A stretch of 11,892 nt of DNA from assembly GCA_017934845.1 (NCBI GenBank), contig JAGBIR010000055.1, forward strand, positions 1 through 11,892. Reading direction: 5' to 3'. Position 1 is the stretch's first letter; the number at the start of each line of letters is the position of its first letter. Both the position numbers and the translations under genes were made by a program. Below are positions 412 to 11,892 of the stretch, in pieces. The DNA is from Alistipes sp. Its GTDB lineage: Bacteria; Bacteroidota; Bacteroidia; Bacteroidales; Rikenellaceae. The notes under the pieces are model-generated. The model did not search any database. It was not told where the DNA came from and saw nothing but the letters and a program-made list of their open reading frames with translations.

Positions 412-3093
412 ATGAGAAGATTATTGTTGTTTGCAATGCTGTTTTTTGCAATTCCGGCCATTGCTCAAGTGAGCCTTACCGACCTTAAGGTCAACCACTT
501 GTCGGCACCCGAAGGTTTGGCGGATCGAACACCTACGTTCAGCTGGATTTTGAAGAGTGATGCTCGTGGCGTGATGCAGACGGCCTACGAGGTTGCTGTA
601 TATAAGGGAGGTAAATGTATGTGGTCGTCGGGCAAAGTGCTGTCGGATAACTCGATAACTGTTCCCTACGAGGGCCCCGAGTTGCAGTCGGGTACGCGCT
701 ATGTGTGGCGAGTCAGAGTGTGGGACAACAAGGGCAAGGTGTCGAAGTGGATGAGCAGTTCGTGGCTTACGGGCCTCTTCTCTTTGGAGGATTGGAAAGC
801 AAAATGGATCGAGCCGGAGTTGCAGGACGACCGTTCGCCCATTATGCGTAAGGAGTTTGCGGTAAACAAGAGTATAGCCTCGGCTGTTTTGCACGTTACG
901 GCACATGGACTGTATGAGGCATCGATAAACGGCAAGAAGGTTGGCGATGCACACCTAACACCCGGCTGGACTGCTTATAACAAGCGTCTGCAATATCAGT
1001 CATACGATGTAACCTCAATGCTTGCGAAGGGTGCAAATGCCGTAGGATTGGAGTTGGGCTATGGCTGGTATCATAGCCGAATGTGTTTCCATGATCGCGC
1101 AAATCGTTATATGTACAACATCCATCAGGTGGGTGCTATTGCTCAGATTGACATTACCTATACCGATGGCACGAAGGAGTCAATCACAACCGATAAGTCG
1201 TGGAAGGCCTCTACGGGCGAGATTCTTCATTCGACAATCTACGATGGCGAGACTATCGATGCCCGCAAGGCACAGCAGGGCTGGAACTGCGTAGGCTTCG
1301 ATGATTCGGCTTGGCAAAATGTAAACGAGGCGTCGTACTCGCTGGGCGAACTTACCGCTACGGAGTCGGAGCCGGTTGTTACGCGAGAGAGGGTTAAGCC
1401 TGTGAAGTTTTTCATCACTCCTGCGGGCGAGAAGGTGCTGGACTTCGGTCAGAATCTTGTAGGCCGCGAGGTCGTAAAGGTAAATGGCAAAGAGGGACAG
1501 GAGATTGTTATCTCGCATGCCGAGGTTTTGGACGAGAAGGGTAATTTCTATACTACAAATCTCCGCACCGCCAAGGCTCAAACGCGCTACACTTGCCGCG
1601 AGGGCGAGCAGACATTCTCGACAAAGTTTTCGTGGTATGGTTTCCGCTACCTGAAGGTCGAGGGTATTGAGGGCGACCTCAATTTGGACGATTTTGTTGC
1701 CGAGGTTATCTTCTCGGACTACCCCGAAACAGGCAATTTCGAGTCATCAAATGCACTTGTAAATCAGTTGCAGAGCAATATCAAGTGGGGTATGCGTGGC
1801 AACTTTGTCGATGTGCCGACCGACTGCAATCAGCGCGACGAGCGCATGGGCTGGACAGGCGATGCACATGTATTCTTCCGCACCGCTACATTTATGGGCG
1901 ATGTGCAGAACTTCTTTATCAAGTGGCTGAAAGATTTGGCTTTGGATCAGTGGCCGGGAGGCGAGATTACCGACCTTGTGCCTTGTATCCCCGGTTGGAT
2001 GGGTGCAGGTCGTACGGGTTGGGCCGATGCGGGCGTTACTATCCCGTGGCAGCACTATATGGCCTATGGCGATAAGCGCGTGCTGGAGAATCAGTACGAG
2101 AGTATGAAGCGCTGGATTGACTTTATGTTCCGCAACTGCCAGGACTATCTATGGTCGTCGGGCTGGCACTATGGTGATTGGTTAGCATATCAGGCAGAGA
2201 ATGATTTTGGAGGTCGTTCGGCCGTGACCTATCGCCCGCTTATCCAGCAGTGTTTTATGGTACACTCTGCCGAGCAGTTTGTCGAGGCGGCGAAGGTGCT
2301 GGGTAAGACGCGCGTTGCGGAACGATATGCGGCAACCATCGAGAAGTGCAAAAAGGCCTTCTGCGAGGCATACCTCACACCACGCGGACACCTCGTATCA
2401 TCGACCCAGGCGGCCTATGTGCTTGCGTTGGAGTTTGATATGGTTCCCGATGAGGTGCGCCCAACGATTGCAGCACGCTTGGCGGAGAATGTTCGCGAGT
2501 ATGGCCACCTTACAACCGGTTTCCTGGGTACGCCTTACTTGTGCCACGCGTTGAGCAATAACGGCTACACCGAGCTGGCATACCGCATCCTGCTGCACGA
2601 GGGCTATCCCGGCTGGTTGTATTCGGTTAAGATGGGCGGAACTACGATTTGGGAGCTGTGGGACTCTATGAAGTCCGACCGCACTATCCCCGATACGGGT
2701 ATGAACTCGTTCAACCACTACTCGAAGGGTGCCGTTGGCGATTGGCTCTATCGTGAGGCTGTCGGCTTGAAGGAGATTACGGCTGGTTACAAGAGCTTTA
2801 TGGTGCGCCCCAACCCGGGTGGCGGCTTTAAGTATATGGGTGCCGACAAGGTTACGCCTTATGGTCGCGCTGCGGCGAAGTGGTACGACGAGCCGGGTAA
2901 GTTCACTCTGGAGGTCGAGGTACCAGCCAACTCAACTGCCGAGATTTATGTTCCCTCGCCTTCGGTTGATGCCGTAACGGTTGATGGTGTGGCGGTTGCA
3001 TCGGTTGCCGATGTTAAGGTTATCGGCAAGGACGGCCCTTACGCAAAATTCGTTGTCGGCTCGGGAAAGTATAAGTTCGTCGCCAACAGGTAA
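412..3093 (+). CDS. Secreted GH78 alpha-L-rhamnosidase
   Basis: This enzyme removes terminal alpha-L-rhamnose from plant glycans such as rhamnogalacturonan side chains or flavonoid rhamnosides, by an inverting mechanism. The 893-residue protein begins with a signal peptide (basic MRR, hydrophobic core, probable cut after AIA at about residue 18). No lipobox cysteine is seen, so it is probably periplasmic. An Ig/fibronectin-like domain (about 20-125) is followed by rhamnosidase N-domains (about 150-430), the (alpha/alpha)6 catalytic barrel (about 435-785) and a C-terminal beta domain (about 790-870). The GH78 catalytic signature DVPTDCNQRDERMGWTGD covers 467-484; E477 corresponds to the general acid of Streptomyces avermitilis SaRha78A (E636). 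GGTTIWELWD holds E748, the expected general base, and H769 lies 21 residues on, as in SaRha78A (E895/H916). Length is normal and all key residues are present. The exact substrate cannot be told from sequence. Confidence 0.93.
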   Translation: MRRLLLFAMLFFAIPAIAQVSLTDLKVNHLSAPEGLADRTPTFSWILKSDARGVMQTAYEVAVYKGGKCMWSSGKVLSDNSITVPYEGPELQSGTRYVWRVRVWDNKGKVSKWMSSSWLTGLFSLEDWKAKWIEPELQDDRSPIMRKEFAVNKSIASAVLHVTAHGLYEASINGKKVGDAHLTPGWTAYNKRLQYQSYDVTSMLAKGANAVGLELGYGWYHSRMCFHDRANRYMYNIHQVGAIAQIDITYTDGTKESITTDKSWKASTGEILHSTIYDGETIDARKAQQGWNCVGFDDSAWQNVNEASYSLGELTATESEPVVTRERVKPVKFFITPAGEKVLDFGQNLVGREVVKVNGKEGQEIVISHAEVLDEKGNFYTTNLRTAKAQTRYTCREGEQTFSTKFSWYGFRYLKVEGIEGDLNLDDFVAEVIFSDYPETGNFESSNALVNQLQSNIKWGMRGNFVDVPTDCNQRDERMGWTGDAHVFFRTATFMGDVQNFFIKWLKDLALDQWPGGEITDLVPCIPGWMGAGRTGWADAGVTIPWQHYMAYGDKRVLENQYESMKRWIDFMFRNCQDYLWSSGWHYGDWLAYQAENDFGGRSAVTYRPLIQQCFMVHSAEQFVEAAKVLGKTRVAERYAATIEKCKKAFCEAYLTPRGHLVSSTQAAYVLALEFDMVPDEVRPTIAARLAENVREYGHLTTGFLGTPYLCHALSNNGYTELAYRILLHEGYPGWLYSVKMGGTTIWELWDSMKSDRTIPDTGMNSFNHYSKGAVGDWLYREAVGLKEITAGYKSFMVRPNPGGGFKYMGADKVTPYGRAAAKWYDEPGKFTLEVEVPANSTAEIYVPSPSVDAVTVDGVAVASVADVKVIGKDGPYAKFVVGSGKYKFVANR

Positions 3094-3214: not shown

Positions 3215-6343
<3,129 letters not shown>

Positions 6344-7804: not shown

Positions 7805-7838
7805 TATAAAAGCAATCCCGAAGTTGTTACTCCGGGAT
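7805..7838 (-). terminator. Intrinsic terminator overlapping the xerD stop codon
   Basis: On the minus strand ATCCCGGAGT (7838-7829) pairs with ACTTCGGGAT (7824-7815), giving a 10-bp stem with one G-U pair and a 4-base AACA loop. It is followed by TGCTTTTATA. The left arm is the last three sense codons of xerD plus the T of its TAA stop, and the other two stop bases lie in the loop. The T-tract is short (four), so strength is uncertain. Confidence 0.6.
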
Positions 7839-8729
7839 ATGCATATGATTTTCGACTGTATTGCGTAGGTGCGTGGTGTCGAGATGGGTGTAAATTTCGG
7901 TCGTCAGTATGTTTTCGTGCCCCAAAAGTTCTTGCACTTGGCGAATGTCGGCACCACCCTCCAGCAGATGTGTAGCAAAGGAGTGTCGCAGCGTGTGCGG
8001 ACTGATCTTCTTGTCGATGCCGGCGCGTGCTGCGGCTTGACGAATGATAGTGAAAATCATTACTCGCGTCAGCTTCTGGCCTCGGTTGTTAAGGAATAGG
8101 ATATCTTTGTTGTGCTTGTTCTGATTTCTCGACTCCAAATATAGCTGCACGCGGTCGCGTGCTATGCTGTTGACGGGCACCATACGCTGCTTGTCGCCTT
8201 TTCCCGTGACGCGGATGTAGCCCTCGCCAAAGAATAAATCTTTTATTTGCAGGTCGCATAATTCGCTTACTCGCAAGCCGCACGAGTAGAGCATTTCGAG
8301 TATGGCCTTGTCGCGCAGACCTTTGGTTGTCGAGCCATCTATGATGTTGATTAATAGGTCAATCTCCGCGGTCGAGAGGGTGTCGGGAAGCGTGCGACTC
8401 GGCTTGGGTGCCGAGATAAGTTCGGCAGGCGAAACCTCTATCTTCTCCTCCAAAAGCAGATAGTTGAAAAAACTCTTCACGCCACTCAATGCGCGGGCCT
8501 GCGAACTCTTTTGGCGTTTGCCCTCGTAGAGCCAATCCATAAAACGCTCAACCATGGTGCGCTCGACTTTGCGTGGCTCGACATCGTAGCGATGCAGAAT
8601 GAAGTGGGCAAACTGCTCCAAATCGCGCATGTATGACTCTACGGTGTTGGCTGCAAGGTGCTTTTCAAGGCGCATATAAACCCTGTATCGCTTTGCCGTA
8701 TCCTCCCATTTCCTTTTGTTATCTGCCAT
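7827..8729 (-). CDS. xerD: Site-specific tyrosine recombinase XerD
   Basis: XerD and its partner XerC resolve chromosome dimers at dif during cell division. The 300-residue protein has the usual length and layout: an N-terminal SAM-like core-binding domain (about 10-95) and a C-terminal catalytic domain (about 115-295). All catalytic residues are visible: R153 (CGLRVSE), K177 (TGKGDKQR), H245 and R248 ([18 protein letters not shown]), H271 ([10 protein letters not shown]) and the nucleophile Y280 (IYTHLD). The conserved ending after Y280 and the absence of nearby att-like repeats, phage genes or conjugation genes favour housekeeping XerD over a phage or transposon integrase, although XerC and XerD paralogues in Bacteroidetes are not always easy to separate. 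It diverges from prmA with 61 bases between start codons. Confidence 0.88.
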
Positions 8730-8790: not shown

Positions 8791-9624
8791 ATGGAATATG
8801 TCGAGCTTAAAATAGTCGCCAAAGATGATGAACAGGCCGAGATTCTTACGGCCGAGTTGGCGGATTTTCCCTTCGAGGCGTTCGATGGCGAGGGTGGCGA
8901 GTTAAGGGCCTATATCGTTGCCGACGAGTACGATACTTGCCGCGACGAGATTGGCGCGATGCTCGCTGGATGGGAGGTGGAGTGGTCGGCCGAGAGTGTT
9001 GCCCAGCAAAATTGGAATGCCGAGTGGGAGAGCTCGTTCGAGGCTGTCGATGTCGAGGGTGAGCCTCGTCTGCGTATTCGTGCCGAGCATCATGCGCAGC
9101 CAGAAGAGGGTGTAATCGATGTGGTTATCGCGCCACGAATGTCATTCGGTACGGGCCATCATACGACGACGGCTCTTATGTCGCGTGCCATAGCCGACTC
9201 TGCTCTTCAGGGGTTACGCGGTCTGGATATGGGTTGCGGTACGGGAGTGCTGGCAATAGTTGCAGTAAAGTGCGGAGCCGAGAGTGTGGTGGCGGTCGAT
9301 ATCGACGAGTGGGCTTGCGATAGCTGCCGCGATAGTATTGCGTTAAGTGGCGTTGAGTCGGCAATCGATGTGCGTTGCGGCTCGATGGCGGCTGCCGAGG
9401 GCGAGAAGTTCGATTTTGTGCTGGCAAATATCAATCGTAATATTCTGGTCGATATGATGCCCTCGTTTGCGACTGTATTGCCCTCGGGCGGATTGCTCTA
9501 TATGAGTGGCTTCCTTGTTGAGGATGTGGAGGTTATCAGTGCCTCTGCAGCGGAGCGTGGATTCAATGTCGTGCGCGAGCTTCAGCGTGATGGCTGGGCT
9601 GTTGTAGTGTGTAAAAAGAGTTAA
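8791..9624 (+). CDS. prmA: Ribosomal protein L11 methyltransferase PrmA
   Basis: PrmA transfers methyl groups from S-adenosylmethionine to lysines and the N-terminus of ribosomal protein L11 in the cytoplasm. The 277-residue protein has the two expected parts. An N-terminal L11-recognition domain (about 1-95) ends with the family-typical QQNWNAEWESSFEAV. It is followed by the linker motif PRMSFGTGHHTTTALM (compare FGTGTHPTT in E. coli PrmA). A Rossmann-fold methyltransferase domain then carries the SAM-binding loop LDMGCGTG (145-152), the acidic ribose-binding VDID, and LANINRNIL (211-219), the NIN motif typical of PrmA. Length is slightly below E. coli PrmA (293) and normal for this phylum. 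Two bases separate its stop from the next ATG, so the pair is almost certainly co-transcribed and perhaps translationally coupled. Confidence 0.92.
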   Translation: MEYVELKIVAKDDEQAEILTAELADFPFEAFDGEGGELRAYIVADEYDTCRDEIGAMLAGWEVEWSAESVAQQNWNAEWESSFEAVDVEGEPRLRIRAEHHAQPEEGVIDVVIAPRMSFGTGHHTTTALMSRAIADSALQGLRGLDMGCGTGVLAIVAVKCGAESVVAVDIDEWACDSCRDSIALSGVESAIDVRCGSMAAAEGEKFDFVLANINRNILVDMMPSFATVLPSGGLLYMSGFLVEDVEVISASAAERGFNVVRELQRDGWAVVVCKKS

Positions 9625-9626
9625 TT

Positions 9627-10238
9627 ATGGCAACAATATTACCTTCGGCATATATGCCAACGGTGGAGTATGTGGCACGCCTGCTGCGCGAGGAGTGCGT
9701 TGTGGATGTGGGTGAGAATTACATTAAGCGCTCCGAGCGCAACCGAGCGCAAATTCTCTCAGCAAACGGCGTTATGCCCCTTACGGTGCACGTCGAAAAT
9801 GCCAATCGCCCGCGAATGCCAATGCGCGACGTGAGGATTGACTATTCGAAGCGTTGGCAGCATCAGCATTGGGTGTCGATTCTTTCGGCTTATAAGTCGT
9901 CGCCCTATTTCGACTATTTCGCAGCCGATATCGAACCGTTCTATCGTCGCGAGTGGCGATTTCTGGTGGACTACAATATGGAGTATTTGCAGACGCTGTT
10001 GCGATTGATGGGGGCAAGCGTAGAGTTGAATATCGATGAGCGGTATGTCGAGGCTGCCGATGACGATTTGGATTTGCGCCCCAAACGAAAAAAAGAGGAC
10101 TCGACATTTGTTGCCGAGCCCTATTTTCAGGTCTTTTCCGACCGTATGCCTTTTGCCGAGAACCTATCGGTGCTCGACCTTGTGATGTGCGAAGGCCGAG
10201 ATGCTATCGACGCTGTTTTAATGCGTTGCCAATTGTAA
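9627..10238 (+). CDS. WbqC family protein
   Basis: The 203-residue protein matches the WbqC-like family (PF08889) by its run of conserved motifs: LPSAYMPTVEYVARL near the N-terminus, VGENYIKRSERNRAQILSANG (about 27-47), the WQHQHWVSILSAYKSSPYFDYF core (about 75-96), then PFYRREWRFLVDYN. The C-terminal PYFQVFSDR...NLSVLDLVMCEG also fits. The family is named after a gene in O-antigen biosynthesis clusters, and its members are sometimes thought to act in sugar-nucleotide or amino-sugar modification, but no activity can be assigned here. The protein has no signal peptide or membrane segment and should be cytoplasmic. The ATG lies two bases after the prmA stop. A basic, low-complexity stretch (RPKRKKED, about residue 150) interrupts the otherwise ordinary family pattern. 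Its last 35 bases overlap the tail of the convergent GH2 gene. Confidence 0.8.
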   Translation: MATILPSAYMPTVEYVARLLREECVVDVGENYIKRSERNRAQILSANGVMPLTVHVENANRPRMPMRDVRIDYSKRWQHQHWVSILSAYKSSPYFDYFAADIEPFYRREWRFLVDYNMEYLQTLLRLMGASVELNIDERYVEAADDDLDLRPKRKKEDSTFVAEPYFQVFSDRMPFAENLSVLDLVMCEGRDAIDAVLMRCQL

Positions 10239-11892
10239 TCTGCTGATTATCGAACAGATCGCCAGCAAAAACCTCTACGTTGTTGTGGCCGTGCAGCACC
10301 ACTGAATCCGATATGAATTGGCAGGGTGCATACTCGCGTACGGGGATCGTATCCTTGTTGATGAGCAAAACGGGAGTCGCTTCAACCGAAGAGTAGAATT
10401 TCACCTGCTGGATAGTATCTTGTCGAATGTTACGACGCTTTTCTGTAAGGTGGAGAGTCTTGCTCTGCTTGTTCCACAATGCGCGGTAGAGGTAGTAGGC
10501 ATCCTTGCGATCCTTTCTGTCGAAGGTCATCAAGCCGCGGTGTGACATACCATCGGCGTGACGTGCCGAGCCAAAATCGAACATATTGTTAATCCACACA
10601 CCCCAGAAAATAGAGTCGGGACGAACGTGCTGAGAGTAACCCTCGTGGAACTCCGTCTGCCAACGTTCAGGCAACCAACGATCGTTGATGCGGACAGGCT
10701 TGTCGCTTCGTGCTGTCTGCTGATCTATCGATCCGCTCTCGCCATAGGCAACAGCCGAACGCAAATGACTCCAATTGCTATGGAGCTTCTCGCGCCACAC
10801 CTGTAAATCGTTAATCGAGCCGCGTGACCATCCAATATTTTGCTGCCATACGATAAGGTCGGTGATGAAGTTTAGCTCGCCGTCCTGATTGCTGCACGCA
10901 ACCGTCGGACGTGTCTTATCCAATGACTTTGCCGTAGAGTTGAGCTGACGCACATACGAGAGCACGTTGTCGCCACGCTCCCAGATAAGCGAGTAGATGC
11001 CCCACATTACAACCGACGGGTGGTTGTAGTTCTGAATAATCACCTCGCGTAGCTGGTGCAGACCATTCTGCTTGAAGCGGTCGGTCGCGTAGTAGAATAT
11101 GTCGCTCAAATAGGGTGCGCGAGTAAAAGGCGTGTCAATCCATGTAAGCAAGCCCAACTCATCGCAACGATTGTAGAGGTATTGCGAATGTGGAGCTGTC
11201 GATGAACGTATGGCATTGGCTCCGATATCCATAATACACTCCAAATCCTCCTCGTAGTGGCGTGTACGCAGGGCATTGCCTATCGCAGCGCGGTCGTGAT
11301 GGAGTTTTACGCCATTTATTGGTGTATATTTACCGTTGATGTACAACCCCTTATCGGTATAATCTATTTTTCGGAAGCCTGTTGTGACGGTTACCTCGTC
11401 GTTGAAGTGCATTCCCATACCTATACCCACAGTTATTGAGTAGAGGTTTGGCTCATCGCAACTCCATAACAATGGTACTTCGATTGTAAAGGGTATGTCG
11501 ATAGGAGTGTCCGGCTCGATACGGCCCTTGATATATTTTGTAAATACCGCATCGCCCGATGGAGCACGAACGGTTATCGAGAGGTCGCACAACTTATCGT
11601 GTAGCGAAGTTACCCATACCGAGGCCGTAGCATTTACTTCGGTGTCGGTAATCTGATTCTGATGAATAAGAATACCATCCGATCCGTAGTAGAGAGGCGA
11701 GATTGTAGTCGGCTCGGTTACAATCAACTCTACGTCGCGATATATTCCGCCATAGAGATTCTCTTCGGAAGATGTGGGCAGAACGTCGTTCTGGTAGGCA
11801 TTGCTTACAACCACGACGAGCGAATTGCTGTCGCCATATTTTATCAACTTGGTAATCTCGAATGTAAAGGCCGTCCATCCGCCACGATGCTC
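10204..11892 (-). CDS. GH2-fold protein with degenerate active site, N-terminus beyond window (partial)
   Basis: The reading frame is open to the right edge (562 residues visible). A TTG at 11847-11845 is just an internal leucine, since the preceding 15 codons continue the GH2 jelly-roll motif (EHRGGWTAFTFEIT). Visible parts: end of the sugar-binding domain with GGIYRDVEL, an Ig-like domain, a TIM barrel from about residue 190 (INGVKLHHDR) and a C-terminal beta domain ending in TIGNALKQRR. The scaffold matches exported Bacteroidetes beta-galactosidase-like proteins (NHPSVVMWG, NMFDFGSA, TFDRKDRKDAYYLYRALWNK). However, the acid/base motif reads WGIYSLIW instead of WG..NE, and the nucleophile motif reads AVAYGESG instead of SEYG. 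Three further subsite residues also differ: T for His in SHYP, D for Glu in WxEIP, N for Trp before NMFDFG. Catalysis by the normal GH2 mechanism is therefore doubtful. About 100-130 N-terminal residues, including any signal peptide, lie outside. Confidence 0.85.
   Translation of the reverse strand, partial: EHRGGWTAFTFEITKLIKYGDSNSLVVVVSNAYQNDVLPTSSEENLYGGIYRDVELIVTEPTTISPLYYGSDGILIHQNQITDTEVNATASVWVTSLHDKLCDLSITVRAPSGDAVFTKYIKGRIEPDTPIDIPFTIEVPLLWSCDEPNLYSITVGIGMGMHFNDEVTVTTGFRKIDYTDKGLYINGKYTPINGVKLHHDRAAIGNALRTRHYEEDLECIMDIGANAIRSSTAPHSQYLYNRCDELGLLTWIDTPFTRAPYLSDIFYYATDRFKQNGLHQLREVIIQNYNHPSVVMWGIYSLIWERGDNVLSYVRQLNSTAKSLDKTRPTVACSNQDGELNFITDLIVWQQNIGWSRGSINDLQVWREKLHSNWSHLRSAVAYGESGSIDQQTARSDKPVRINDRWLPERWQTEFHEGYSQHVRPDSIFWGVWINNMFDFGSARHADGMSHRGLMTFDRKDRKDAYYLYRALWNKQSKTLHLTEKRRNIRQDTIQQVKFYSSVEATPVLLINKDTIPVREYAPCQFISDSVVLHGHNNVEVFAGDLFDNQQITIGNALKQRR

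Follow-up and report, generated by a model that had tools for sequence, protein, structure and literature searches.

A glycoside hydrolase family 2 protein without its catalytic glutamates, a putative pseudoenzyme kept across Alistipes

We analysed a stretch of 11,892 nucleotides from Alistipes sp. (contig JAGBIR010000055.1 of assembly GCA_017934845.1, our contig C140; hereafter the window), one end of which is occupied by a gene for a glycoside hydrolase family 2 (GH2) protein that has lost its catalytic residues (Table 1). The source is a metagenome-assembled genome (MAG) of 1.65 Mb in 242 contigs, 70% complete, and the gene runs into the end of the contig at 11892, with its 5' end open and no start codon in the window. 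The reading frame is free of stops until the stop codon at 10206-10204, which bears out the intact frame noted in a preliminary description of this DNA, and it encodes the C-terminal 562 of about 668 residues. The remaining 106, with an ATG and a signal-like N-terminus, sit on contig C31 of the same genome, whose bases 1-141 are identical to the final 141 bases of the window and which carries the first 153 codons. The joined product has the same length as the nearest homologue, P0001, which is 86% identical to the window protein. Read by eye rather than with a predictor, the N-terminus is hydrophobic and ends in an A-R pair that is invariant across 20 aligned sequences, and that of another homologue, P0021, shows a lipobox-like Cys.

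The domains and the barrel place the protein in GH2 by fold and homology. The 562-residue piece matches the Pfam domains PF02836 and PF00703 above the cut-off and PF02837 below it, full-length P0001 matches all three, and the predicted fold retains the GH-A barrel (Foldseek TM 0.91 to PDB 3cmg). The closest systems are the beta-glucuronidase of B. fragilis (3cmg, 5z1a), GUS mL1 of Tannerella forsythia (8dhe) and the NCBIfam family NF050095 (LacZ4). The whole fold, the domain order and a number of structural residues are shared with these beta-glucuronidases, P0001 being 38% identical over about 660 columns. The cut-off of NF050095 (950) is not reached by the 562-residue piece (480) or by full-length P0001 (606), and a canonical control, P0121, scores 1173; P0121 also has a C-terminal DUF4982 match that P0001 lacks.

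We aligned the window protein by phmmer with the three solved relatives, all of which carry the canonical N-E, SEYG, His, Tyr, Trp and NxK residues that it is missing. A multiple alignment was also built from 19 canonical relatives, 22 further proteins that share the deletion described below (the deleted clade) and 116 Alistipes proteins: P0001 and 115 non-identical sequences, none shorter than 480 residues, drawn from 187 loci. According to the preliminary description, the acid/base N-E pair has been replaced by Ser-Leu, the His of SHYP by Thr, the Glu of WxEIP by Asp, the pocket Trp by Asn and the nucleophile by Ala. Every codon lies where it was placed, and the first four replacements stand opposite those residues in 3cmg, 5z1a and 8dhe. 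At the nucleophile, an Ala does precede YG, but the proposed change from Glu to Ala does not hold: because Y-G pairs with Y-G and the Glu falls opposite a gap (SAVA-YG versus IGISEYG), its loss is better read as a one-residue deletion. All 19 canonical relatives have Glu in this column, where the 116 Alistipes proteins and the 22 others of the deleted clade all show a gap. The uronate-binding motif expected of LacZ4 is absent as well, S-H-R standing for the N-D-K of 3cmg. The window protein is thus homologous to an active family, with the nucleophile on strand/loop 7 deleted and the acid/base pair replaced, and retaining glycoside hydrolysis would, from these residues, almost certainly be impossible for it.

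Table 1. Coordinates of the GH2-type gene, its altered sites and neighbouring genes in the window
Feature	Position	Strand	Remarks
Pseudo-GH2 gene	10204..11892	-	562 codons and stop; 5' part on C31:1-459(-)
Ser-Leu at acid/base N-E position	10987..10992	-	phmmer alignment
Ala-Tyr junction without nucleophile Glu codon	10744..10749	-	phmmer and multiple alignment
Thr at His of SHYP	11197..11199	-	alignment
Asp at Glu of WxEIP (W-A/T-EIPF; WAEIPF in 3cmg)	11134..11136	-	alignment
Asn at pocket Trp before NMFDFG (WNMFDFG)	10588..10590	-	alignment
Ser-His-Arg replacing uronate-binding N-x-K (INDKGL in 3cmg)	10537..10545	-	alignment
Loop-6 changes	10825..10845	-	Asn to Gln 10845-10843, Tyr to Asn 10839-10837, Tyr to Ser 10827-10825
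His-Asp ending barrel strand 1 (H305-D306, P0001 numbering)	11293..11298	-	conserved polar set
WbqC-like protein gene	9627..10238	+	PF08889; convergent downstream neighbour
prmA (ribosomal protein L11 methyltransferase)	8791..9624	+	context
xerD-type tyrosine recombinase gene	7827..8729	-	context

The same state is found throughout the genus. All 180 Alistipes genomes have a GH2 match (178 of them below 1e-100). Among the 179 other than the source, we could read the sites in 167, the remaining 12 having weak, partial or unplaced matches (G019, G040, G047, G056, G090, G101, G107, G108, G111, G113, G114 and G117). None of the 167 has both glutamates. Ser replaces the Asn of the acid/base motif in 151, the His of SHYP is retained in none (19 of 19 canonical relatives have it), and the pocket Trp is also never present, its position being N, E or D in 157. 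Across the Alistipes alignment, the Glu of WxEIP is D in 112 of 116 and E in four, and the NxK positions keep N in 42 and K in 10. The 120 listed homologues (out of 6801 matches) are 69-87% identical to the window protein and mostly 655-668 residues long; all 120 have S-L and the Ala before YG. Nearly every Alistipes genome examined keeps a dead copy, often with the same neighbours.

The 19 canonical relatives have 75 positions that never vary. At 54 of these, at least 80% of Alistipes still carry the canonical residue; by our count, ten of the other 21 are pocket landmarks (338, 359, 407, 408, 456, 458, 462, 541, 556 and 558; the Asn at 556 is retained in 36%), and the pattern is not one of chance. 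The landmarks Arg335 and Tyr489 are retained. Alistipes entropy is 1.5-3.2 bits at the acid/base, His, loop-6 Asn and Tyr, Trp and NxK positions, all of which have zero entropy in canonical relatives, and most former pocket positions are as variable as the average position (entropy rank 0.49-0.95).

Some Alistipes loci depart from the common form. In seven from the deleted clade (L058, L066, L286, L287, L302, L312 and L323), a substitution in the shortened strand has restored a Glu directly before YG, and each has Arg at the acid/base position. The form seen in four genus-grouped genomes (L332, L333, L336 and L339; S-K, LTYSAG, VAGNMF) is like that of the deleted clade in other genera. In G019, unlike the genomes listed around it, a canonical LacZ4 query gives a stronger best match (5.8e-104) than P0001 does (2.7e-63).

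We then placed these proteins among their relatives. In the other Rikenellaceae, we read 40 loci from 39 of 88 genomes, covering 20 of 21 genera (in G196 and G207 a lower-ranking match was read instead of the best one). The nucleophile deletion is present in 22 loci spanning nine genera. Seven loci have S-x at the acid/base pair with the nucleophile kept (L207, L209, L213, L223-L225 and L228), four have D-Q with the nucleophile kept (L217, L220, L227 and L229) and five are canonical (L216, L218, L219, L230 and L231). In L214 the nucleophile is replaced by Ala, and L222 (G180) keeps N-E and the nucleophile with the His and Trp landmarks lost. Searches of 247 genomes from other families of the order found 27 loci; the 16 best (L236-L251), all canonical with both glutamates, were placed in the tree, and the 11 others, more distant GH2 proteins, were left out.

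The resulting tree has 90 rows, 56 of which (34 Alistipes and 22 others) make up a single clade marked by the deletion (SH-aLRT 100). It is nested in a clade of 65 rows that all lack the NE motif except L222, a long-branch relative that is either a relic or a reversal. The trees come from short searches with SH-aLRT as their only support; they leave 25 of the 87 inner branches unresolved and include rows of odd composition. Removing the catalytic-site columns leaves the deletion with a single origin (100), and that tree has, with L214 included, two losses of the nucleophile and three changes of the NE state. The losses were stepwise in the history of the family, and not the coordinated loss that the preliminary description had supposed. 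The four D-Q loci form a separate one-genus clade, a second case in which the acid/base pair was lost; their SEYG nucleophile and pocket Trp persist.

The gene is maintained by purifying selection. In eleven close pairs, a chosen subset with long flanks that excludes L085 and is not made of fully independent pairs, its ratio of nonsynonymous to synonymous substitution rates (dN/dS) is 0.066-0.231, with a median of 0.155. The neighbours, for the same pairs where measurable, give 0.126 for RsgA (7 pairs), 0.140 for TrmH (6), 0.180 for WbqC (10, one infinite) and 0.280 for CvpA (7), so that the pseudo-GH2 gene resembles its housekeeping neighbours. A wider set of 30 pairs ranges from 0.026 to 0.354; seven of these (0.19-0.354) involve L030 or L085 and are suspect, since the N-termini look frameshifted, and the other 23 reach 0.301.

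The location of the gene is also conserved. In the usual Alistipes layout, cvpA-like, rsgA and trmH/spoU genes lie divergently upstream and wbqC lies convergently downstream. In 60 loci plus the window, we counted wbqC in 52 of 61, rsgA in 50, cvpA in 45, recG in 35, and 12 each for prmA and xerD, on flanks that are in part shortened by contig ends. The commonest neighbours are cvpA, rsgA, trmH/spoU, wbqC and recG, in counts that included no search aimed at SusC/SusD. The window gene's own cvpA and rsgA are on C31. Checks of the names CvpA, RsgA, WbqC, PrmA and XerD covered the window and C31; TrmH/SpoU, RecG and an aminotransferase were named by eye. Outside Alistipes, cvpA-rsgA is beside 20 of the 22 deleted-clade loci (on the opposite side in L202), beside none of 17 nucleophile-keeping relatives and not beside L214. 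The fixed location and the deletion coincide on the tree, without an order between the two, although neighbours too divergent from the query may have escaped the count.

Homologues, trees, dN/dS and synteny support the suggestion, already made in the preliminary description, that this is a pseudoenzyme, and they show it to be under purifying selection. Since the copies are near-universal in Alistipes and often lie beside the same neighbours, the protein probably does some job other than cutting sugars, despite the name beta-galactosidase given in databases.

What this job may be is suggested by a set of polar residues at or near the ends of the barrel strands (P0001 numbering). In the 116 Alistipes proteins, D306, S336, H341, S440 and W539 are invariant, and H305 (115; Q in 18 of 19 canonical relatives), Q457 (115), R335, D359 and R550 (112 each) and S407 (110) are nearly so. 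D306 and R335 are common to canonical relatives too, H341, D359, S407 and S440 are frequent in the other deleted genera, and H305, S336, Q457, W539 and R550 are mostly confined to Alistipes. We consider it reasonably probable that the protein is a secreted, vertically inherited GH2 pseudoenzyme of LacZ4-type descent whose rebuilt barrel mouth binds a ligand or partner. The narrower proposal that it now works without glycosidase catalysis as a putative periplasmic or secreted binding protein, with a ligand or a protein partner at that mouth, is in our judgement evenly balanced. The original sugar is unlikely to be bound any more, since the NxK motif, the Trp and the Tyr residues of loop 6 have been lost and their positions now vary.

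The corresponding scenario would start from a LacZ4-type (mini-loop-1-like) beta-glucuronidase. The acid/base pair N-E would have been lost first, within Rikenellaceae, after which one ancestor would have lost the nucleophile through the one-residue deletion. This lineage would then have become fixed beside cvpA-rsgA and been inherited vertically since, to reach a present state in which H305, D306, S336, H341, D359, S407, S440, Q457, W539 and R550 are 95-100% conserved while most of the old subsite drifts. Several observations weigh against this reading. The polar set was assigned to the barrel mouth by strand ends alone, and some of its residues may reflect core repacking; D306, H341, D359, S407 and S440 are also common in other deleted genera, some of them in canonical relatives. 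Two deleted-clade loci (L206 and L210) have no cvpA-rsgA neighbours. Finally, a Glu stands directly before YG in 7 of the 167 Alistipes genomes and at the acid/base position in three, though never both together, and an acid/base Glu is found in 4 of the 22 other deleted-clade proteins.

The same residues bear on two other functions. If the barrel interior were repacked filler and the outer surface alone mattered, for oligomer or envelope assembly, one would expect the average-like variation of most old pocket positions, and the relative TfGUS mL1 is an active homotetramer (available text of PMC10162664); polar residues so completely conserved at strand ends are not what one would expect of filler, and we regard such a scaffold as unlikely, if the most serious of the alternatives. 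A neofunctionalised enzyme, with a different active site at the barrel mouth (e.g., Ser-His-Asp or a metal) and non-glycosidase chemistry, would account for the conservation of S336, S440, D306, H341, H305, D359, R550 and S407 on a barrel that is predicted to be retained. It is improbable, given that H305, S336, Q457, W539 and R550 are absent from most other deleted-clade proteins, which would need another site.

Continued glycosidase activity with substitute residues is very improbable. Some GH2 subfamilies do tolerate changes of the NE motif, with SD in GH2_16, SE in GH2_14 and Trp in GH2_21 (available parts of PMC12243196), Ser is frequent at the Asn site here, and D370, on the loop that follows strand 3, is an Asp in 114 of the 116 Alistipes and 7 of the 19 canonical proteins. 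It is the only barrel residue among the acidic positions conserved in Alistipes and present in less than half of the canonical set (37, 161, 178, 370, 620, 635 and 654). But the nucleophile that the same survey calls invariant across GH2 is deleted, NxK, His, Tyr and Trp are lost too, and the 116-protein alignment holds no new conserved carboxylate, nor a replacement pair, at the strand ends. The two substitutes offered in the preliminary description are rejected, as neither is conserved: among the 120 listed homologues, 21 have the Glu of IWERGD, and among the 116 Alistipes proteins 57 have that of YGES. A regulatory subunit paired with an active LacZ4 paralogue is comparably remote; the homotetramer of TfGUS mL1 would fit it, but a close canonical LacZ4 occurs in just two of 180 genomes (G010 and G168), a more distant GH2 partner being possible. 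Decay or a MAG artefact has a negligible chance. The source MAG is 70% complete and its contig breaks off within the gene, and a few relatives have an in-frame stop within the match (L008, L011, L049 and L330), but three of these (L008, L011 and L049) still read 659-662 residues, and the length and conservation of the listed homologues, the low dN/dS and the synteny rule out both private changes and decay.

Chitinase-like lectins and Klotho have a glycoside hydrolase fold without catalysis. Like them, and like the pseudoenzymes reported from herbivorous beetles (available part of PMC6549527), the protein proposed here has kept the fold and lost catalysis; those cases belong to other families and eukaryotic hosts, whereas this one is a vertically inherited bacterial gene, genus-wide, with stepwise intermediates in sister genera. 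Within GH2, the available parts of a 2025 survey (PMC12243196) count NE, His, Tyr, Trp and NxK among the landmarks and describe the NE motif as variable in some active or untested subfamilies. GH2_19 (TV, NA or NQ) and GH2_21 (Trp) have the motif replaced as here; unlike them, the window clade has also had its nucleophile Glu deleted, and it is thus an exception to the invariance stated in those parts of the survey. We found no description of the deleted clade in the open-access literature searched, and in the available part of PMC5145203 the words "inactive" and "pseudo" do not appear.

All nine of the 120 listed homologues with a source-given name are called beta-galactosidase, and counts of beta-galactosidases and glucuronidases for gut Alistipes are therefore probably too high, by roughly one dead copy for each genome. 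The series from NE with the nucleophile, through DQ or S-x with the nucleophile, to the deleted nucleophile offers a natural test bed for the decommissioning and re-employment of an enzyme. It is a less likely prospect that, once both glycosidase carboxylates were gone, a new functional site would have arisen within the old barrel mouth (H305, D306, S336, H341, D359, S407, S440, W539 and R550 in Alistipes), for new chemistry or as an important receptor for an envelope ligand, with stepwise intermediates in sister genera.

Other GH2 genes in these genomes were also recorded. The canonical LacZ4 query matches 177 of 180 genomes at 1e-60 or below, 157 of them a single time, and only two matches exceed 41% identity: the canonical LacZ4 of G010 (L350, 71%) and G168 (L351, 65%). 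At these identities to the protein from another Bacteroidales family, the two extra copies suggest recent transfer or contamination. Tandem GH2 paralogues were considered and dropped, as just three extra members aligned over 150 residues, at about 22% identity. The window itself also encodes an ordinary LacZ-type beta-galactosidase (3215-6328, minus strand) with GNE, SHYP and CEYAH motifs, adjoined by an alpha-L-rhamnosidase-like gene (412-3093).
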